The notes under the pieces: generated by a model
Seen by the model: only the letters and a program-made list of their open reading frames with translations
Database searches by the model: none
What the model was told of the DNA's origin: nothing
Assembly (NCBI GenBank): GCA_024695065.1
Contig: JAILIX010000042.1
Span: forward strand, 1-64,000
Direction of reading: 5' to 3'
Length of the DNA: 64,000 nt
Origin: Fretibacterium sp.
Lineage (GTDB): Bacteria; Synergistota; Synergistia; Synergistales; Aminobacteriaceae
Made by a program: the position numbers and the translations under genes
Part shown: in pieces, positions 16,937-54,112 of the stretch
Position numbering within the stretch: the first letter of the stretch is position 1
Layout of the letters: each line of letters starts with the position of its first letter

Positions 16937-19923
16937 TGGCTGTCCGGATTTTTCCCTATTGCCGCGGATCAGAGCTCTCTCCTCTGATCCGCAAATTCCT
17001 GAATTGCGGCAACGAGGTGAGGTTTCTTGTTCCATCGCGCAAGGACAGGGACTGGTGGCTGAGGCGGGCAGGAAGGGATCAGTACGGGCCGGCGGAGACA
17101 CCATCCTTTACGCTCTGGACGTGGCAGGACCTTTACGATGATCTCTGTGCATCCCTGGGTGTCCGTCGTCGTCGTCCCCTCTCTCCTCCCGATCATCTCC
17201 TTATTCTGCGCCGCATCCTTGATGAAGTTCTTGAGGAGAACCCGGAGCTGTCGGAACGCTGGCCCGGGTTGAAGCGCTCCGGTTTTCTGGATGTGCTGTC
17301 CAACGACGTGCACGAGCTTTTGAACGAGGCTGTGCGGCCCGGACACATGGAGGCGGTGGGGGAGGAGACCTCCCCGGCTGGGCCCGCGAAACTTCTGCCG
17401 GAAGTCTATCGCCGCTACCTGGCCTACCTGGAGGAAAACATCCTTCTTGACAGCGCGCAAATCTGCATGGCCGCGGCAGAGCTCCTGCATGGAGCGGGAG
17501 ACTGGGGACGGGATTTCACGCCGGTTTTTACGGGGTTCCTCTCTTTTACCCACAGCCAGCTTGAGCTGGTGCGGGGCTTAATCACGCGCTGCAGGGATGT
17601 CGTTATCCTGAAGCCGGAGACGCGGCTCCCAAAACTTTACGATGTGGCCGGCCAGCTTGCGGAATACGCGGAACAGCCGGAACTGCCGGATGCGGGGGGA
17701 TATGTTGCCGACCTCCCTGCCGCAGAACCGGGACTGGAGCCGGAGGTCATTGCCCGAAGTCTGGCGCTGTGGTCAGACGGGCAGGGGGAGTTGGCCTCGA
17801 TTCAGCCGTTTCCCGGTTTTTCCAATATTGGTCTCATGGCCTCCAGCAGCACGGCAGAGACGATGATTTCTGCTCTGGAGCGATACAGCGTCCCCTTCAC
17901 CCAGGAGGCAGGGAGGAGCATTGCCCAGACGCTTCCAGGGCAGATTCTTGCCTCCGTCCGGTCATTGAAAAACATGGGCTTTCCCGTTTATGGTACGGCC
18001 TTATTGCTCACGCAGCCCTGTTTTGCCGGGGCTGCTGCAGAGTTTCTTCCGGGGCAGGGTTCTTTCTCAACGGTCAATGCGCTCAGGGCGGGTCCCGCGG
18101 GGCTCTCTGAGTGGGAAAAATACCTTGAGGCTGCGAAACAGGATGAACCTGTCAGGCTGGCGCGTCTGGCAATTCGCGCTATAGGAACGTTCTGCCGTAA
18201 AATCTCCGGGGGAGGGCGCCCGGTGGATTTGATGGATGCCTTCTGCAAATTTCTGACCGTACGCGGCCTCTGGCTGGACCTCATCGGGGAACAGCCCTAT
18301 GCGGAGCTGGATGAGACCGTCCGCACCACGGCCTCGGCTATTGAGACCATTAAAGAGAAGGCTCTGGCCCTGCGGGAGCTTCTGCCGGATCTGGGGCCCG
18401 TTGGTCAGGAAAAGCTTAAGGGGGAGAGTGCTTTTGACTTTCTGGAGACCTGGTGCCGTCAGAGCAACACAAGGCCTCCCCTTCCTCTGCGGGGGGCAGT
18501 TCACCTTTATGTGGGACATCCCCCGGTGCTTGCCTCTCACCCCGTCTGGGTTATGCTGGGGGTCACACAGCAGACATGGCCGGGACATATCCCCGGCTCC
18601 CCGCTTTTGGACGCAGCTGAGCGGGAGCGGCTCGACCGGAATGGCGCGCATCTCCCCTCATCCCACGACAAGGCCATGCAGAGGGAAGCCCTCTTTCGCC
18701 GGCTGGTCCAGACAGGAGAGAGCCTGACCGTGCTGTCCCGCTCCGAACTGGATGAGGACGATCACCCTCTGGAACGCTCGCCTTTTGTTGAACGCTTCCA
18801 GAAGGACATGAAGGGCTGGAGCCTGGTCTCTTTGCCCTTAGTGCCCATCGATGTCCTGACCGGCGGGGATGACTATCTCTTCCCGGATATTGACCCGGAG
18901 ACCTCGATTTCCGGACGTACGCCTCCCGTTATTCATGACGCTGTGGAGGGGCCGATGGGGCTGGGAGTCAGCGACCTTAAGGAACTCCTGAGCTGTCCCG
19001 CACTTTGGTGGCTCCGGCGCAGGGGACGGCTTCGCGAACGCACGCTGGAGCTTGCCACTGCAGCGGATTGGGGCACCCTGACCCACGTTCTCTGGCAGAA
19101 GGTCTGGCAAAGATTCAGGGACATTCGTGACGCGGAGCAATTTCCTCCCATTGTTCAGGAGGAATGGACGCATCTTGTCTCCGGGGAGGGCCCCTATGAG
19201 CCTTTCAGACACTTCACGGGGGACCGCCGTCTTCAGCGGCGGCTGGAGAACTTTCGGTTTCGGGTTCTCCGCCTCGGAAAAATCCAGGGACAGATTCTGG
19301 AGCGGCTTTATCAGGCGGGGTTTACTCACAGGGAAATACGCCTGGAGGAGGAGGCTCAGCTGAGTCTTGAGCTGGAGGGCATTACATTCACGGGCCAGTG
19401 CGACCGCATAGAAGTTCTTGAGGACAGGGCGGGATGCCCTTGTGCTCTCATCACGGACTACAAAGAAGGCAGAGCGGAGAAGTATGAAAAGGGGATGTCG
19501 GTCATGGACTGCCCATGGAACACCAGCGAATGGGAAAAATTTCGCTTTGGTCTCCAGCTCTCTGCGTACGCTGTTATGTTTGAACATGAATATCCAGAGA
19601 TTCCCCTCGCCGGGGTAAGTTTTCTGGGGATGGAAGACGGCAGGCTGGCCGGGAGCTTTACCCGGGAGGTCCAGTCATACTTTGCCCCGGAGTGTGATTC
19701 TCCCAGGAAACTGGCTGTGCCTCTGCGGGAGCGCGAGGACGAGGCAGAGTATGCCATGCAGCATGCGGCCTCCCTGCTGCGCGCCGGGGAATTCAGGCCG
19801 TTTTACGGCTCAGACCTTTGCCGGACATGCGGCATGAAAGGCGTATGCCGGCGGAGCGAGTTCTGCGGCGAATCGCTCCTTGAGGATGAGGACACAGGCG
19901 GCCCCTCAGATACCTCAGATTGA
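16936..19923 (+). CDS. AddB-like PD-(D/E)XK nuclease with Fe-S cluster motif
   Basis: 995 residues. The C-terminal nuclease has GQCDRIEVL (about 820) and ITDYKEG (about 838) as the D...DxK catalytic pair. A Fe-S site is suggested by LLSCPALW (about 686) and CRTCGMKGVC (C-x2-C-x5-C, about 961-970), the arrangement in AddB and Cas4-like nucleases. Middle motifs VMLGVTQQTWPG and LDAAERERL also match AddB. The N-terminus (RIFPYCRGSELSPLIRKFL) has no Walker A, so no ATPase is expected, unlike Firmicutes AddB. It probably partners the AddA-like protein at 26361-30086 in double-strand break resection, though six unrelated genes lie between them. Confidence 0.78.
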   Translation: MAVRIFPYCRGSELSPLIRKFLNCGNEVRFLVPSRKDRDWWLRRAGRDQYGPAETPSFTLWTWQDLYDDLCASLGVRRRRPLSPPDHLLILRRILDEVLEENPELSERWPGLKRSGFLDVLSNDVHELLNEAVRPGHMEAVGEETSPAGPAKLLPEVYRRYLAYLEENILLDSAQICMAAAELLHGAGDWGRDFTPVFTGFLSFTHSQLELVRGLITRCRDVVILKPETRLPKLYDVAGQLAEYAEQPELPDAGGYVADLPAAEPGLEPEVIARSLALWSDGQGELASIQPFPGFSNIGLMASSSTAETMISALERYSVPFTQEAGRSIAQTLPGQILASVRSLKNMGFPVYGTALLLTQPCFAGAAAEFLPGQGSFSTVNALRAGPAGLSEWEKYLEAAKQDEPVRLARLAIRAIGTFCRKISGGGRPVDLMDAFCKFLTVRGLWLDLIGEQPYAELDETVRTTASAIETIKEKALALRELLPDLGPVGQEKLKGESAFDFLETWCRQSNTRPPLPLRGAVHLYVGHPPVLASHPVWVMLGVTQQTWPGHIPGSPLLDAAERERLDRNGAHLPSSHDKAMQREALFRRLVQTGESLTVLSRSELDEDDHPLERSPFVERFQKDMKGWSLVSLPLVPIDVLTGGDDYLFPDIDPETSISGRTPPVIHDAVEGPMGLGVSDLKELLSCPALWWLRRRGRLRERTLELATAADWGTLTHVLWQKVWQRFRDIRDAEQFPPIVQEEWTHLVSGEGPYEPFRHFTGDRRLQRRLENFRFRVLRLGKIQGQILERLYQAGFTHREIRLEEEAQLSLELEGITFTGQCDRIEVLEDRAGCPCALITDYKEGRAEKYEKGMSVMDCPWNTSEWEKFRFGLQLSAYAVMFEHEYPEIPLAGVSFLGMEDGRLAGSFTREVQSYFAPECDSPRKLAVPLREREDEAEYAMQHAASLLRAGEFRPFYGSDLCRTCGMKGVCRRSEFCGESLLEDEDTGGPSDTSD

Positions 19924-19981
19924 AGCTCAGGGGCCCGCAGAGCGGGTTCCCCGGCGGGAAAAGAGACCCCCGGAAACCCCC
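19918..19981 (+). repeat. Palindromic repeat family 1, copy D, at the AddB-like stop codon
   Basis: Ends GATTGAAGCTCAGGGG and CCCCCGGAAACCCCC match the ends of copies A, B and C, with a longer interior containing CCCGC/GCGGG. Its first bases supply the TGA stop of the AddB-like gene. Confidence 0.5.
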
Positions 19982-19986
19982 GGGTG

Positions 19987-20026: not shown

Positions 20027-21295
20027 TTACGCCTCAGCCTGTGCGGACTCCTCGGCCAGGGCACGCTGTCCCTGCTCAAACCACGACTTGCCCTCGACAA
20101 GGCGTGCCACCATCATGGCAGAGCAGGTGTCGCCCGTGGCATTGACCATCGTGGCTGCCGGATCCACCAGGAAGCCAATCGTTGCCACAATGGGGAAGGC
20201 CTCAGGCGGAAAGCCGTAGAGACTGACGATGAGCATCTCGCCCACCAGTCCGCCGCCGGGAATGCCGGACAGGACAATGCCGCTCAGCACCGCCACTGCC
20301 ACCGCGCTGGCAATGGTCCCCGCACCCTCAAGGGGCATGTTGAAGATGCCGAACAGGAATGCGATCTTGAGAATCCCGCTGAGGCAGGATCCCTCCATGT
20401 GTGCCGTGGCCCCGATGGGCAGAACGACTTCACTGATGTCGTCGGGGATGCCGATTTTATGCGCGGCTTCCAGATTGACCGGCAGCGTGGCGACGCTGCT
20501 GCCCGTGCCGAGCGCTGTCAGTGACGGGGACAGTATGTTTTTCCAGAATATGCCGACGCCCTTCCCTCCGGTGGCCCAGGCGGAGTACAGTGTGAAGGCG
20601 ATGAAGAAGTAGCCCAGAGTCGCCGCATGGTAGGCAATCATGGCCCGCAGGTAGGAGCCCAGCAGATTGGGCCCGAAGTCTCCCACGAGCGCTGCGAAGT
20701 AGGCAAACAGTCCGATGGGAGCGTAGTACATGATGATTCCCACCAGCTTCAGCATAGCCTCTCCCAGAACGTTGATAGTCCGGGCGACAGAGCGCCCCTT
20801 CTCGCCCAGCATCTGGAGGCTGATGCCGAAGAGAATGGAGAAGAGGATCAGCGGCAGCATGTGGCTGCGCGATATGAGCTCCGGAAAATCGCTGACAGTA
20901 AGGGCTTTGACAATCTGGTCCGGAGTGCTGAGCGGCTGGAAACTATCCGGTTTGGTCAGAGCGATCTGCACCCCTTCCGCAGGGGGATAGGCCTTCACGG
21001 TGAGGATCATGACGATTGCCGCAATGGCTCCTGTCACAAGAAAAACTCCCACCAGAGAGCCCATGACGTTCCTCAGACGCTTCATTGAGGACATGTTTGC
21101 CACTGCACCGCAGACTGTGGTGAAGACCAGCGGCACCACAATCATGAACATGGCGTTGATGAAAATATCTCCCAATGGCTTGAATACCAGCGCGTCCCCG
21201 CCCATCTTTGCCCCGGCAGCGCAGCCAAGGGCAATTGCGGTCAGCAGAATCAGGGGAAAACGATACGACCTCCAAAAACTGTTCTTCTGTTGCAT
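20027..21295 (-). CDS. Sodium/proton-dicarboxylate or glutamate symporter (DAACS family)
   Basis: 422 residues with the DAACS fold: hydrophobic N-terminal helices, FINAMFMIVVPLVFTTV, the serine-rich re-entrant loop GTGSSVATLPVNL, and the substrate-binding region FLVDPAATMVNATGD near the C-terminus. Takes up glutamate, aspartate, serine or C4-dicarboxylates with cations; which one is not resolved. The start is ATG 21295 with AGGAGG 10 bases upstream; a TTG six bases earlier lies too close to it. Last gene of a minus-strand run that begins with the HIT gene. Confidence 0.9.
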   Translation of the reverse strand: MQQKNSFWRSYRFPLILLTAIALGCAAGAKMGGDALVFKPLGDIFINAMFMIVVPLVFTTVCGAVANMSSMKRLRNVMGSLVGVFLVTGAIAAIVMILTVKAYPPAEGVQIALTKPDSFQPLSTPDQIVKALTVSDFPELISRSHMLPLILFSILFGISLQMLGEKGRSVARTINVLGEAMLKLVGIIMYYAPIGLFAYFAALVGDFGPNLLGSYLRAMIAYHAATLGYFFIAFTLYSAWATGGKGVGIFWKNILSPSLTALGTGSSVATLPVNLEAAHKIGIPDDISEVVLPIGATAHMEGSCLSGILKIAFLFGIFNMPLEGAGTIASAVAVAVLSGIVLSGIPGGGLVGEMLIVSLYGFPPEAFPIVATIGFLVDPAATMVNATGDTCSAMMVARLVEGKSWFEQGQRALAEESAQAEA

Positions 21296-21319
21296 AGTCA
21301 AAAAACCTCCTGAAACATG

Positions 21320-22596: not shown

Positions 22597-24342
22597 TCAC
22601 CAGACGGCAACACATCCGTCTGTTCTGGGTTCCGTTGCCCCTGCCAGCGATGCCACGCTGGGAAACCCGTTACACGGGCCGCTGGGAAGCCCGCTATGTG
22701 GGCCGGCAGGAAGCCCACTATGTGGGACGCGCAGGATGATTTCTCCGCGCCCAAACGACGTGGAGTCTTCCAGCACTTCGACTTCATGTCCGCGAGCCCT
22801 CAGCCCTTCAGCGATACGGGGAGATACGGCCCTTTCCAGCAGGATTTTTTTCCCGCCTGTCCACTGCCAGCGCGGCGCGTCCAGTGCCTCCTGGGGGTTC
22901 ATGTTGAAGTCCACGAGGTTCGCAACAACCTGCACATGTCCCTGAGGCTGCATAAAAGCCCCCATAACGCCAAAGGGCCCTACCGCCCTGCCTCCCTTTG
23001 TGAGGAACCCGGGGATGATGGTATGATAGGGCTTCTTGCCTGGCGCGAGAACGTTGGGTGACGCGGGGTCAAGGCTGAAGTTCGCGCCTCTGTTGTGCAG
23101 GGCGATGCCCGTGCCTGGCACAACCAGACCGGAGCCGAATCCCATGTAGTTGCTCTGAATCATCGAGACCATGTTGCCCTCTCCGTCCGCCGACGCGAGA
23201 TAGACGGTCCCGCCCCGCCCGGGACGGCCAGGGGCCGGCTCCAGGGCTGTAGGTCCAATCAGCGCGCGTCGCTTGTCTGCATAAATATCGGAGAGCAGGT
23301 CCTCTGTCCGGCAGGTCATGAACCGCGGATCGGCTACGTAGGCCCGCACGTCGGCAAAGGCCAGCTTCATCGCCTCAATCTGAAGATGGTACGTCTCCTC
23401 CGTCTCCCGCTCCGTGGGAATCCTCGGATTTAAGCTCAGGGGGTTGCTTTGCCCCCCTGAAACCCCCAAGCCTTCCAGTATCTTCAGCGCCATGAGCGCG
23501 GCGATGCCATGCCCGTTGGGCGGAATTTCCCAGACGTCAATCCCGCGATAGGAGACCGAGACAGGCTCAACCCAATTTGGGCCGGCAGGAAGTCCACTCT
23601 GTGGGGAAAAAGCAGAGAGATCGGCTTTCCGCAGCAGTCCGCCGGTCGCCTGAGCGAAGGCGTCGATCCTGTCTGCCAGTTCCCCGCAGTAGAAGTCCTC
23701 TGCCTCGCTCTCAGCAATACGGGTCAGGGTTTCCGCATGATCGGATGAACGCCAGATCTCACCCGGCATTGGGGCCCGGCCCTCAGGGCAGAAGGTTCTG
23801 AACCACTCCCTGCAGTCCACCCCATGACACCGGGAATATTTTTCAAAGGCCTGATGCCACAGGAGAGACACTGTGGGCGAGACCGCTGTCCCCTCACGGG
23901 CATAGTCAATGGCCGGGGCCAGATCCTCAGCCAGCGTCAGTTTCCCGAATTTCCCCACGAGCTTCGCCCAGCCTGCCGGGGCGCCGGGAACTGTGACCGG
24001 TACCCAGCCCAGCTGCGGCATTTCGCTGTGTCCCGCGGCCCGAATCGCCTCCGCGTCGGCCAGCCTGGGGGCCGGCCCGCTGGAGTTCAGGCCATGCAGT
24101 TTTTTCTCATTCTCCATCCAAACCAGGGCGAAACAGTCTCCCCCGATTCCGTTTGAGGTGGGCTCAACCACGGTGAGGCAGGCCGCCGTGGCTACTGCTG
24201 CGTCCACGGCATTTCCGCCCCGTTTGAGGATGTCCAGGCCGGCCTGAGCGGCCAGCGGCTGCCCTGTGGCGACCATGCCGCGCGTGCCGAAAACAACCGA
24301 TCGGCGCGAGGGATAACGATAGCGCAACGCGTCAAAATCCAT
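22597..24342 (-). CDS. ggt: Gamma-glutamyltransferase family N-terminal nucleophile hydrolase
   Basis: 581 residues. N-terminal motifs GMVATGQPLAAQAGLDILKR and GNAVDAAVA, plus EPTSNGIGGDCFALVW, define the family. The autocatalytic threonine is probably in RGGTVYLASADGEGN (about residue 378), followed by NMVSMIQSNYMGFGSG. No signal peptide is seen, so it may be cytoplasmic and a GGT-like acylase rather than a periplasmic glutathione enzyme. Two stretches break normal GGT alignment: GGQSNPLSLNPRIP after ILEGLGV (repeat family 1) and 8-residue repeats HSGLPAGP/HSGLPSGP near the C-terminus (family 2). Start ATG 24342 has AAGAAGG upstream. Confidence 0.88.
   Translation of the reverse strand: MDFDALRYRYPSRRSVVFGTRGMVATGQPLAAQAGLDILKRGGNAVDAAVATAACLTVVEPTSNGIGGDCFALVWMENEKKLHGLNSSGPAPRLADAEAIRAAGHSEMPQLGWVPVTVPGAPAGWAKLVGKFGKLTLAEDLAPAIDYAREGTAVSPTVSLLWHQAFEKYSRCHGVDCREWFRTFCPEGRAPMPGEIWRSSDHAETLTRIAESEAEDFYCGELADRIDAFAQATGGLLRKADLSAFSPQSGLPAGPNWVEPVSVSYRGIDVWEIPPNGHGIAALMALKILEGLGVSGGQSNPLSLNPRIPTERETEETYHLQIEAMKLAFADVRAYVADPRFMTCRTEDLLSDIYADKRRALIGPTALEPAPGRPGRGGTVYLASADGEGNMVSMIQSNYMGFGSGLVVPGTGIALHNRGANFSLDPASPNVLAPGKKPYHTIIPGFLTKGGRAVGPFGVMGAFMQPQGHVQVVANLVDFNMNPQEALDAPRWQWTGGKKILLERAVSPRIAEGLRARGHEVEVLEDSTSFGRGEIILRVPHSGLPAGPHSGLPSGPCNGFPSVASLAGATEPRTDGCVAVW
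22660..22731 (-). repeat. Three tandem 24-base palindromic units in the 3' end of ggt
   Basis: Units at 22660-22683, 22684-22707 and 22708-22731 are diverged copies (for example GGAAGCCCACTATGTGGG, self-complementary CCCAC/GTGGG). They encode 8-residue repeats HSGLPAGP, HSGLPSGP and CNGFPSVA on the minus strand. A further copy is at 23579. Confidence 0.75.
23426..23467 (-). repeat. Palindromic repeat family 1, copy A, inside ggt
   Basis: On the coding strand, GGGTTTCAGGGGGG, a short loop, then CCCCCTGAGCTTAAATCC; the CAGGGGG/CCCCCTG stem is perfect. It encodes GGQSNPLSLNP exactly where other GGTs run from ILEG directly into the conserved EAMKLAFAD helix, so it looks like an in-frame insertion. 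Confidence 0.7.
23579..23606 (-). repeat. Single copy of the 24-28 base repeat (family 2) inside ggt
   Basis: GGGCCGGCAGGAAGTCCACT followed by CTGTGGGG is nearly identical to the unit at 22699-22726. It encodes SGLPAGP in mid-protein. Confidence 0.65.
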
Positions 24343-24365
24343 TTCAGGAACCTTCTTCCCAGGGT

Positions 24366-25097
24366 CTAAATGTCCACGTCGGACTCCCATCCGGCGATAA
24401 TCTCCTGTGCCTTCAGACTGGCCAGTGTTTGGGACAGAGCTTCAATTGAAGCGCAGGGTACGCGGGCCGTGACAGAAATGACAGGGATGGTGTCCGTTCT
24501 GTTCCCTCGGCAGGAAACCTGTTCTGTGGAGCTGTAATCCCATGTCAGGTCAGTGCCCCCATGTCCTTCCAGCAGCCGCGTCACCGTTCCGACGGAAGCC
24601 CAGGGCAGACGCACGGCAAGGAGACGCACAGGCACCCGCTCCACCATTTCCGCCGCGTCGAGCGTTCGTGCCGCCGCTCCGCCGTAGGCTTCTATCAGGC
24701 CCCGGACCCCCAGCTTGACTCCGCCGAAGTAGCGGGTCACGATGACAATAACATTGAACAGTCCGCGGGATTGAAGATCAGTGGGGGAGGAGCCCCTGCA
24801 GCCCACGCGCTGGATGGCGCCCAAAATAGGCCGTCCCGCTGTACCGGAGGGCTCGCCGTCGTCGGAGCTGTATTCAATCGTCGGCTCCGGGCCCAGACGG
24901 TAGGCCCAGCAGTTGTGCGTCGCGTCTCTGTGCGCGGCCCGCACGCAATTCAGGAGCTCCCTCGCCTCCGCCTCGCTGTGACAGGGCTCCGTCCGTCCGA
25001 TAAAGACGGAGCGCTGTATCTTCTCCTCATATTCCGCAGGTCCCGTCAGCTCAATGTAACTTTGCCCCTCTAACCTGGGAGCGGGGTCATTTTTCAT
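24366..25097 (-). CDS. yigZ: YigZ/IMPACT family protein
   Basis: 243 residues with the UPF0029/IMPACT N-terminal domain: EKIQRSVFIG, AHRDATHNCWAYRLG, SSDDGEPSGTAGRPIL and VTRYFGGVKLGVRGLIEAYG. The C-terminal 70 residues form the small DUF1949-like ferredoxin-fold domain. Cellular role is not settled in the family; eukaryotic IMPACT regulates Gcn2. The start overlaps the HIT gene by 11 bases and the stop lies 23 bases before ggt, so it is within the minus-strand operon. Confidence 0.93.
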   Translation of the reverse strand: MKNDPAPRLEGQSYIELTGPAEYEEKIQRSVFIGRTEPCHSEAEARELLNCVRAAHRDATHNCWAYRLGPEPTIEYSSDDGEPSGTAGRPILGAIQRVGCRGSSPTDLQSRGLFNVIVIVTRYFGGVKLGVRGLIEAYGGAAARTLDAAEMVERVPVRLLAVRLPWASVGTVTRLLEGHGGTDLTWDYSSTEQVSCRGNRTDTIPVISVTARVPCASIEALSQTLASLKAQEIIAGWESDVDI

Positions 25098-25654: not shown

Positions 25655-26377
25655 ATGGCGGTTTTTGAGGGTATGCTGCTTCTTGAGGAACGCAGAGCGG
25701 TGGTCAATTATGGCCAGAGGCTGCTGACACATGGGCTCACGCGCGGCACGGGAGGCAACGTCAGCGTCCTGAACCGGGAACAGGGACTCCTCGCCATCAG
25801 CCCGTCGGGCATGGACTACTTTGAGATTTCTCCGGAGGACGTCGTTGTGATGGACCTGGAGGGCCGCGTCGTTGTTGAGGGTTTCAGGGGGGGAAACATC
25901 CCCTTGGGTTCAAATCCGGACGGAGGAAAACGCCGGCCGTCCAGTGAAGCGGATATGCATCGTATGCTCTACAACGGACGGCCGGACATCTCAGCCGTTG
26001 TTCATACACACTCCCCCTTCGCCACGGCTTTGGCCTGCACACGGGAAGCCCAGAAGAACGGACTGCCGCCTGTTCATTACCTGACTGCCATGGCCGGGCC
26101 CTCCGTCCGGTGTATCCCCTATTATCCCTTTGGGACGGAACTGCTGGGGCAGGCGGCCCGCGATGGGATGGCGGATCGCTTTGCCGTGCTGCTGGGAAAC
26201 CATGGACTCCTGGCTGCGGGGCCCGATATCAGCTATGCTTTCAATGTTGCGGAGGAACTGGAATTCGTCTGTGAGATTTACTGTCATGCCCGGACGATGG
26301 GCACTCCGGCCCTGCTGTCCAGGGAGGATATGTGCGTAGCGATGGAAAGGTTCCGGGGATATGGACAAAGGAGCTGA
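25655..26377 (+). CDS. Class II aldolase/adducin family sugar-phosphate aldolase
   Basis: 240 residues, fuculose-/rhamnulose-phosphate aldolase-like. Motifs: GTGGNVSV, SPSGMDY, RPSSEADMH with catalytic Glu, the zinc ligands in VVHTHSPFATALA, and LLGNHGLLAAG. In relatives, VVEG is followed within a few residues by KPSSE; here about 14 extra residues (FRGGNIPLGSNPDGGKR region) separate them, encoded by repeat copy C. Activity may persist because the insertion is a surface loop in the fold. The 3' end overlaps the AddA-like gene by 17 bases. Sugar substrate unknown. Confidence 0.85.
   Translation: MAVFEGMLLLEERRAVVNYGQRLLTHGLTRGTGGNVSVLNREQGLLAISPSGMDYFEISPEDVVVMDLEGRVVVEGFRGGNIPLGSNPDGGKRRPSSEADMHRMLYNGRPDISAVVHTHSPFATALACTREAQKNGLPPVHYLTAMAGPSVRCIPYYPFGTELLGQAARDGMADRFAVLLGNHGLLAAGPDISYAFNVAEELEFVCEIYCHARTMGTPALLSREDMCVAMERFRGYGQRS
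25879..25918 (+). repeat. Palindromic repeat family 1, copy C, inside the aldolase gene
   Basis: GGGTTTCAGGGGGG, a short AAACAT loop, CCCC, then TTCAAATCCGGA match copy A of ggt read on its coding strand. It encodes GGNIPLGSNP, similar to GGQSNPLSLNP from copy A, with the same frame at the AAATCC end. Confidence 0.7.
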
Positions 26378-29300
26378 GGCCCTTCTGCCGGAGGGAACGC
26401 CCGATGGCCAGCGCCGTGCCGTCACCGCGGAGGGGAAAATCATCACCGTCGGAGCGGGAGCGGGAACAGGCAAGACCTGGGTGCTTTCCAACCGTTACGC
26501 CCGCCTGCTGCTTGAAGCTCAGAAGGAAAGCCCCGTCCAGCGCCTCCCGCCTTCTCTCCCCGTTCAGAATGAGACTTCCCCGACGGCGGGAAGGGGAGAG
26601 CTGCTTCCACGGGACATCCTGACGCTAACCTACACTGAAGCAGCCGCCAGCGAGATGAGGAGCCGGATTGAGAAGCGGGTTCGGGCCCTGCTGTTTCAGT
26701 CATCCGTTGACGAAAAGCGTAAGACGGCTATAACGGATGGTTTCAGCGAGGCCTGGATATCGACCATTCACTCCTTTGCCGCGCGGCTGATTCGGGAGTC
26801 CGGACTGGCGCTTGACGTGGATCCCCGTGCTGCGGTGATTTCCAATTCCCAGGAGGAACGTTTCTGGGACAGCGTGCGGGAGGCTGTTGAGTTTGCGGAT
26901 ATCAGATCCCTGGCTTTGGTGTATGGGGATGCTCCCCTTCAGACGGCGGCGTCAGAGCTGGACATGGACCCCATCCTCAGCGCGGCCGTCGGCCGGTGGG
27001 GGGGCGTCCGGCTGAGCGTCCTGGCCAGAAACGCGGCTGAGCTCCATGCATCGCTGGGACACAGCTGGGAGCAAATGATGGAATGGAGCTCAGAGGGCGG
27101 GGAGAGGCTGTTCCGGGCAGCAAAGCCCTCTGTGTCAGCTATCCTGAGTGGGGCCTGGCGGCGGGCGTGGAACACGTGGGGCGAGATATTCGAAGCGCTG
27201 GGGGAGTCCATTCAGGCTAAGGGGCGGAAGGACTGCGAGGCGGGCAGACCGGATAGTGTGGATGCATTTCTGGCGGCTTTTTATGCGCGCTGGGCCGGCC
27301 TTACAGACATGGAGCCGGAGGAGGAGACGCTTCGGGAATTTTACCTCGACGTAACGGACAAGACGAAGCTTAGGGGCGGCAGAAGCAGCCTTCTCGGAGA
27401 GGTCAGTGACTTCCTTGGAAAGACGCTTGGTGTATGGCAGAAGGGGGAGGCGGGGCTGGCTGCGGTCTCCGCCGCACTTGACGCCCCTGTATCGGATTCG
27501 GAGCGACGTCTGCACACGGTTCTGCTGCGGTTCTGCGCCGTGGCCTGGGGGCTGTGGGAAGCGATGAAGCGGCGGCGCGGCCTTCTGTCCTTTTCCGATA
27601 TGATTCTTCACGCGCGGGAGGCGCTGCAGAACAATCAGCTGGAGCAGTCTTTCCGCCATATCCTGGTGGACGAGTTTCAGGACACGGATCCCCTTCAGTT
27701 TGATATGATTAAATCTCTGGCAGAGGACGGCAAAACTTCCCTCTTTGCTGTCGGGGACCCCAAACAGTCCATTTACGGCTTCCGCCACGCGGAACCCTCC
27801 CTCTTTGCCGAAACCATTGGCCACGCGGAGACAAGAGTTGAGCTGGACGTCAGCTTCCGCACGCGGGCCTCCCTGCTGGAGCGTATCAATGACCTGTTTG
27901 CGCATATCTGGAGGGATGGGCTTGGCTCGTCGGGGGCTCTGGCACGCCTCGGATTTGAACCCCTTTCACCGGCTCCGGCAGGAGATGACCGCGGCAGGGG
28001 AACAGTTCCCCCCTTCTCCGTCCTTTTGTCCGTGAAGGAGGAGAGAACGGTGGAGGGGGCAAGGGAACGGCTTGCCCGGGAGCTGGGGCGTAAAATCGCA
28101 TCCTGGGTGTCCGGGGGGCGGACGGTGTGGGACAGGGAAGCAGGGAGCCTGCGTCCTGTCCGCTGCAGTGATTTTGCCGTGCTGGTGCGGAACCGGGGGA
28201 CTCACGACCTTCTGGAGCGTGCTCTTGCGGCTCAGGGAGTCCCCGCTGTTCAGGACCTCAGCCGGGGATACTTTGCCCGGGGGGAGGTGGAGGATGTCAT
28301 TTGCCTGCTGCGCGCCGCGGCGGACCCGGCGGACGATGCGGCGGTGGCGGGCTGGCTTCTCTCTCCCTTCTCCGGAGTGTCGGAGGCAGAGGCGGTGTCC
28401 CTTCTGGAACGGGTCTCCGCCGGGAACCGTCTCATCGATGTGATTCGCGGGTCCATGCCCTGTGCTCTGTCCCTGCTTCAGAGGTTTTCTGTCACAGGGC
28501 AGCAGCAGGGGCCGGCAGGTCTGCTGGCCATTCTCGACCGTGACCGTCGCTGGCTGGCCTTTTGCAGGGAAGGAGAGCGTCTGCGCGCTCTCCGCAACGT
28601 CCGCCGGGCTCTTTCCATTGCGCGGGAATTCCAGAGAGACGGCGCTTCGAGTCTTGCCGCCTGCGCAGACTGGATGGCTCATGCCCTCCGTCAGGGCGTC
28701 GTTATGGACGAGCCTGCCTGGCACGGACGGGACGTTGACGCTGTCCTGCTCTCTACAATCCACGCTTCAAAGGGATTGGAGTATCCCGTTGTGGCTCTCT
28801 TCGACACATCCGTACGAAAGGCCCATGGCCAGCGGGACGGCCTGCGTCCCTCCAGAGCGCTGGGGGTTGTCTTCTCCGATCTGCCGGATGAGATGACAAA
28901 CGTCAGGGAGCCTGAGACGCTCCTTCAGGGGGTGGCGTGGGATGGGATACTGGCTGCCCAGGGCGAGCTGGAGGAGGACATGAGGCTCCTTTACGTCGCC
29001 GCCACGCGTGCAGGGGACGGGCTGTTGGTCTGCGGACTGCTGGGGGAGAAGGAGGGGGTCCTGACGCCTCAGAAGGGTTCCTGGACTTCACTGTTCCTGG
29101 CTCGCATGGCGGATCGGGGGGAGTGTCCCCCCATGGAGGGAGGCGTGCGCTTCGAAGATCTTGTCGGGCCGGATATCACGCTGATTTCCTCCGATATCAT
29201 GCCGCCGGCCGGGGAGACAGCGATGAAGAGCGCGGAGGATTCCCATGTTCCCCGCCGTGCTTCACTGCCGGGGAATGAGCCTGTTCTGCTGGACCAGATC

Positions 29301-50837: not shown

Positions 50838-50853
50838 AGATGCCAACTCCTTA

Positions 50854-50890
50854 TTGAATCTCAGAGGGATAAGTCCCCCTGAAACCCCCG
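50854..50890 (-). repeat. Palindromic repeat family 1, copy B, just upstream of the gltX ribosome site
   Basis: On the minus strand: CGGGGGTTTCAGGGGG, loop, CCCTCTGAGATTCAA, followed immediately by TAAGGAG, the gltX ribosome site. It matches copies A and C at both ends and could fold as a hairpin in the gltX leader. Confidence 0.65.
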
Positions 50891-50933
50891 ATATTGTGTT
50901 CAATTTCATATTATATGATAGCGCATTTTTCGA

Positions 50934-54008: not shown

Positions 54009-54112
54009 CTGAATTTAAAGCTCACGCCGCATGGCTGAATTCAAAGCTTACGTCGCATGGCTGAAATTAAAGCTCACGCCGCACAGCTGAGTTCAGAGCC
54101 CGCGCCGCGTGG
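54009..54112. repeat. Four tandem 26-base repeats
   Basis: Units at 54009-54034, 54035-54060, 54061-54086 and 54087-54112, each of the form CTGAATTTAAAGCTCACGCC plus GCATGG with a few differences. They lie between the permease and binding protein genes of ABC locus 1. No spacers are present, so this is not a CRISPR. Confidence 0.85.

Follow-up and report, generated by a model that had tools for sequence, protein, structure and literature searches.

Palindromic repeats that encode protein are known chiefly from Rickettsia and Wolbachia, and many of the insertions there are old and shared. Cyanobacterial genomes carry still smaller mobile repeats of ~20-27 nt, which are dispersed and nested in other repeats. 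The palindromic elements of Rickettsia (RPEs) and of Wolbachia occur in intergenic DNA and also, in frame, inside conserved protein genes, where they encode tolerated, solvent-exposed segments (PMC2229807, PMC3767692). RPEs are described as 100-150 bp in length, their sites are mostly common to several species (PMC3767692), and a CGTC end tag has been reported for those of R. conorii (PMC3733652). Tagged REPs, which end in GTAG or CGTC, include some copies inside genes such as uvrA (PMC3733652), while bacterial MITEs (RUP, Correia/NEMIS, ERIC) are non-autonomous elements with conserved ends, a variable middle and occasional in-frame fusions (PMC2229807). A search of the open literature returned no description of such repeats in the Synergistota; this is weak evidence, as many subscription papers lay outside the search.

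Our analysis concerns two families of hairpin repeat, X and Y, in a 64,000-nucleotide stretch of DNA (hereafter the window) from a 1.98-Mb draft genome of Fretibacterium, a member of the Synergistota. We compared this source genome (G000) with three congeners (G001, G002 and G003), giving a Fretibacterium set of four genomes. We consider it very probable that both families are short palindromic elements of Fretibacterium, mobile but non-autonomous, and that coding sequence tolerates them as long as the reading frame is preserved. All X-bearing genomes are draft assemblies, probably derived from metagenomes, and the contigs of the Fretibacterium drafts frequently end in X or Y repeats.

Two copies of X interrupt enzymes encoded close together in the window. 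The first is a 48-nt in-frame insert (~25874..25921, plus strand), encoding VEGFRGGNIPLGSNPD, in a 240-residue class II aldolase of the fuculose-phosphate type (25655..26377, plus strand; PF00596, E 1.2e-53). The second is a 42-nt in-frame insert (23425..23466, minus strand), encoding GVSGGQSNPLSLNP, in a 597-residue gamma-glutamyltransferase, ggt (22597..24390, minus strand; PF01019, E 1.2e-145). The sequence-only reading had proposed that one repeat is common to 25879-25918 and 23426-23467, and the 14-mer GGGTTTCAGGGGGG is indeed present exactly at 25879-25892 (plus) and 23452-23465 (minus). With up to two mismatches the 14-mer matches five times against 1.07 expected, a count reached by none of 100 shuffles. 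In a covariance model built on 27 copies, with both of these copies in the training set, the aldolase copy scores 47.3 bits (E 2.8e-10, 25875-25919) and the ggt copy 56.3 bits (E 1.2e-12, 23424-23469).

Among named organisms, the window's aldolase has its closest relatives in Fretibacterium sp. RUI518 and RGIG4950, both Synergistota MAGs. The gene neighbourhood around the aldolase and ggt is the same in RUI518, whose two enzymes are ~80% identical to those of the window, and its DNA has a gap at each repeat. At precisely these positions 16 residues (48 nt) are missing from the RUI518 aldolase and 14 residues (42 nt) from its ggt; both insertions are in frame, as first proposed. RGIG4950 DNA (L062) shares the aldolase gap seen in RUI518 (L061), and the inserts are also absent from more distant aldolases (L063-L067), from ggt orthologues of other genera (L033, L037) and from the best solved homologues of each enzyme (PDB 6btd for the aldolase, PDB 2nlz for ggt). 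Orthologues and solved homologues alike lack these peptides, which rules out both loops common to the orthologues but specified by unrelated DNA and a conserved loop of either enzyme family. The sequence-only interpretation of the peptides as insertions is supported at both sites.

Mapping on AlphaFold2 models places both X inserts in disordered loops. The aldolase insert forms a low-confidence loop (residues 78-90) a few residues ahead of the conserved PSSE motif, whose glutamate serves as the catalytic residue of fuculose-phosphate aldolase; other low-confidence segments of the model are the termini and residues 216-218. In ggt, pLDDT falls below 50 at residues 311-326, which hold the X insert, and at two sites of family Y (265-271 and 558-578), with further low-confidence segments at 388-394 and 417-420. 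The family consensus folds better than shuffled sequences (z -2.69), whereas the aldolase copy itself has lost much of its palindrome and folds no better than shuffles (z 0.32). A weak X-like match (17.3 bits) at 26507-26536 (minus strand), inside an AddA-like gene, may be due to chance.

The Y sites in ggt are a single 24-nt copy at 23578..23604 and three tandem 24-nt units near the C-terminus at 22656..22726, both on the plus strand and antisense to the gene. The single copy (repeat family D1) encodes ~8 residues (QSGLPAGP), corresponds to a 24-nt gap in RUI518 and is absent from 2nlz. The tandem units (repeat families D1/D4) encode HSGLPAGPHSGLPSGPCNGFPS, and ~22 residues of this region are missing in RUI518 and in G015. 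Between ggt and the aldolase, and adjoining them, a yigZ/IMPACT-type gene (24366-25097, minus strand) carries a degenerate X copy at 24766..24808 (minus strand; 14.9 bits, E 0.11 over the window). Its in-frame insert of 12-13 residues coincides with residues missing in RUI518 and RGIG4950, and it is likely to be an older insertion. Two further X copies, both on the minus strand, are intergenic. One, at 50849..50891, lies upstream of a glutamyl-tRNA synthetase-like start (MADKNTNIRVRFAPSPTG), as indicated by its covariance score (52.0 bits) and the reading frame. The other, at 19915..19983, lies just downstream of a gene at 20027-21301 (minus strand), scores 32.1 bits with a long loop insertion, and holds a nested Y match at 19932-19951. 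The two Y sites in ggt, the yigZ copy, both intergenic copies and the decay of the aldolase palindrome had been overlooked in the sequence-only reading.

Family X is a palindrome of the form GGGGTTTCAGGGGG-loop-CCCCCTGAGCTTNAAT, with an inserted length usually of 39-48 nt. A fuller consensus reads CCGGGGGTTTCAGGGGG-loop-CCCCCTGAGCTTTAATCCGG, of which GGGGTTTCAGGGGG and CCCCCTGAGCTTNAAT are the parts that stay constant across species. The ends pair over CAGGGGG/CCCCCTG with a weak additional outer helix, and the stem displays little covariation because its arms are almost invariant. The covariance model finds 69 copies in the source genome at E<=0.1 and 58 at E<=0.001, while at the latter threshold the three congeners contain 20, 37 and 31; many of the copies found elsewhere sit outside its training set. 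The genome-wide search that had been advised thus yielded 58-69 copies, a number that does not fit a chance pair, and chance likeness between two GC-rich hairpins is ruled out by copy number together with the controls. These genome-wide counts, like those for Y, come from searches and selected stretches. A search of Rfam with the repeat returned no match to a known RNA family, and the RNase P RNA gene, a site of insertion known for RPEs, matches its model over the full length (344 nt) with no insertion.

Across the order as a whole, X is confined at E<=1e-4 to 10 of 183 genomes, all of them in one family and spread over five genera. In the other genera the X ends enclose a longer, different core of the CCAGYGAG...CGARCGAG type, for a whole unit of ~58-92 nt, and this long form is also present a few times in Fretibacterium. 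As the two forms share the same ends, the short X may be an internal-deletion derivative of the long one. At one locus outside the Fretibacterium set (L122; G006:C90:26064-26272), three long-form copies lie head-to-tail with a 68-nt period and are easily taken for a CRISPR array. Such an array was weighed as an explanation of the periodic copies in G006 and in contig C36 and rejected, since X copies there follow one another head-to-tail with no spacers between them.

The second family, Y, is a hairpin of 24 nt, CCGCTGGGAARCCCRCTYTGYGGG; it has 77 matches at no more than one mismatch, against none for a reversed-pattern control. Its variable stem pair covaries, with 35 G-C, 36 A-T and 5 G-T pairs and no A-C (Fisher P 1e-16). 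Copies occur in tandem at a 24-nt period and nested within the X loop, and in the source genome a histidine-phosphatase-like gene carries a Y insert that is missing in all three congeners. Small, scattered and nested in other repeats, Y looks most like the cyanobacterial small dispersed repeats, from which it differs in sequence and phylum. The RGIG4950 aldolase (L062:2701-3390) has an insert of its own, eight residues (24 nt) reading GTAGKPLE after HYLAALA; judging by its length, this may be a Y-type copy.

The in-frame insertions extend well beyond the window. In the source genome X lies in frame in about nine genes, encoding ggt, the aldolase, a DAO/Fer2_BFD (FAD) oxidoreductase, a secretin, a class-V aminotransferase (an X with a nested Y), a UvrA-like protein (two tandem X), an SBP_bac_3/BPD_transp_1 protein (an X plus two Y), WhiA and a 239-residue protein with no Pfam match. 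Clean gaps are seen in one to three congeners for every one of these hosts save the secretin, where the insert lies near the N-terminus and the congener comparison is incomplete. The congeners in turn carry private inserts of ~13-15 residues: in G002 in SecA, CbiH-like, M20 and DUF554-like proteins, with another X in an RsmH-like protein; in G003 in CapA-like, MeaB and RnfC (two in tandem) proteins, where X lies in other genes as well; and in G001 in RarA. Those hosts that could be compared show gaps in the other genomes; the names given to congener hosts reflect recognition of the sequence rather than a family search. Among the orthologues compared, the X insertions are species-private and apparently recent.

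This pattern bears on how X relates to known systems. Like the RPEs, to which it is closest in behaviour, X is palindromic and is found in intergenic DNA as well as in frame inside conserved open reading frames. Unlike them, it forms inserts of only 39-48 nt (58-92 nt in the long form of other genera), its sites are absent from the compared congeners, and neither X nor Y bears the CGTC tag of the R. conorii elements; the phylum is also different. The likeness to Rickettsia put forward at the outset therefore stands as an analogy of behaviour and fails as membership on length, end tags and site sharing. The most fitting description of X is as a new family within a known kind, the protein-coding palindromic repeat: it behaves like an RPE without being one, a separation drawn from published descriptions of RPEs. 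MITEs resemble X in being non-autonomous, with conserved ends, a variable middle and in-frame copies. X differs from them in being shorter. Outside the hairpin it shows no clear terminal inverted repeat, no target-site duplication was visible at junctions that are too diverged between the compared species to read one, and no parent transposon was seen in the draft assemblies.

The remaining comparison raises the question of what moves the repeats. REPs and REPINs are also hairpins of 20-40 bp that cluster and have some intragenic copies, and X might accordingly be an element of this type moved by a RAYT, an IS200/IS605-like HUH tyrosine transposase. Size, hairpin, clustering and occasional intragenic copies all fit, as does the presence of REPs in uvrA of other species (PMC3733652). 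We regard this origin as very unlikely, given that neither X nor Y ends in GTAG or CGTC and that no PF01797 (RAYT/Y1) protein was found in the four Fretibacterium drafts or in the long-form carriers G006 and G023, in a search that did detect the family in 13 of 41 genomes and in 5 of 14 controls. Nor was any longer element or autonomous parent transposon with X ends seen, although the drafts may hide one; the X left ends that were read have a right-end-like sequence within ~100 nt, in some cases only a degenerate one. Alternatively, slippage or template switching at hairpins during replication could expand the repeats, with no transposase at all. Tandem Y, tandem X, loops that hold further palindromes, the covariation of the Y arms and the failure to find a transposase are consistent with such a process. 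The occurrence of the same two ends in unrelated genes, however, requires transfer between distant sites, and slippage, which may explain the tandem copies only, is unlikely to account for the families as a whole.

We favour a model in which X and Y are mobile repeats whose copies would move as DNA hairpins, aided by a putative trans-acting enzyme. Pairing of GGGGTTTCAGGGGG with CCCCCTGAGCTTNAAT would form a hairpin around the variable loop, new copies would land in intergenic DNA, in one another and in genes, and slippage may account for tandem units. An intragenic copy would persist only when its length is divisible by three and it is read in a stop-free frame, which mostly gives GVSGG--PLS-NP in sense orientation or KLRGKxPPETP in antisense. 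The translated protein would then contain an added flexible surface loop of ~13-16 residues, presumably near-neutral in its effect.

How far coding copies keep the frame was assessed with gene calls made from a codon score trained on the window and from homology. The flagged coding copies had been picked for an open frame, and their in-frame status alone therefore proves little. When 103 copies were screened by coding score with no open frame demanded, 11 lay in intact genes and one gene was truly disrupted, the other six flagged cases being intergenic or not within one gene. The disrupted gene is DinB-like and contains an antisense X with an in-frame TGA inside the element (G000:C100:77759-77801; L104:5760-5802). 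Two open reading frames flagged as coding, on contigs C100 and C128, proved to be antisense to a gene or between genes. In the X consensus each strand offers a single frame wholly free of stops; the CTTAAAT variant gains a second on both strands, and the CTTCAAT variant a second in sense only.

It might be argued that selection maintains the inserted peptides for a role in regulation, localisation or protein interaction. X occurs in genes in both orientations, and the preference for sense (~17 of 22 coding copies, two-sided P 0.017 in a post hoc count) points in this direction, as does the likeness of the peptides. Against it, the hosts are unrelated, the sites are not common to species, and the peptides found match the stop-free frames of X, from which they follow. 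Selected function is thus highly improbable. Yeast mitochondria contain hairpin elements that ribosomes bypass, and by analogy the inserts could be removed after transcription, as introns are, or be bypassed. Coding copies would then have no need to keep frame and avoid stops, as they do, and the repeat has no Rfam counterpart, making such removal extremely improbable.

If X and Y are tolerated mobile repeats, as we propose, four related Fretibacterium species, each with private in-frame insertions (e.g. in secA and uvrA-like genes) and empty sites in congeners, offer paired filled and empty orthologues in which the effect of a new 13-16 residue loop on an enzyme can be measured. The genus is also one in which the mobilising enzyme could be sought. 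A stronger version of this proposal, that Fretibacterium harbours a still-active scattering of hairpin units with exchangeable cores into genes, some of them probably essential, by an enzyme or mechanism undescribed for palindromic repeats, is possible and in our judgement rather doubtful; were it true, what mobilises protein-coding palindromes would become testable in one genus. For annotators and modellers, such loops in Fretibacterium proteins call for caution, as they represent mobile DNA and not conserved features. A further repeat in the window, at 54009-54112, comprises four tandem 26-nt units of the CTGAATTTAAAGCTCACGCCGCATGG type without an open frame; a portion of the unit is similar to the right end of X when reverse-complemented.
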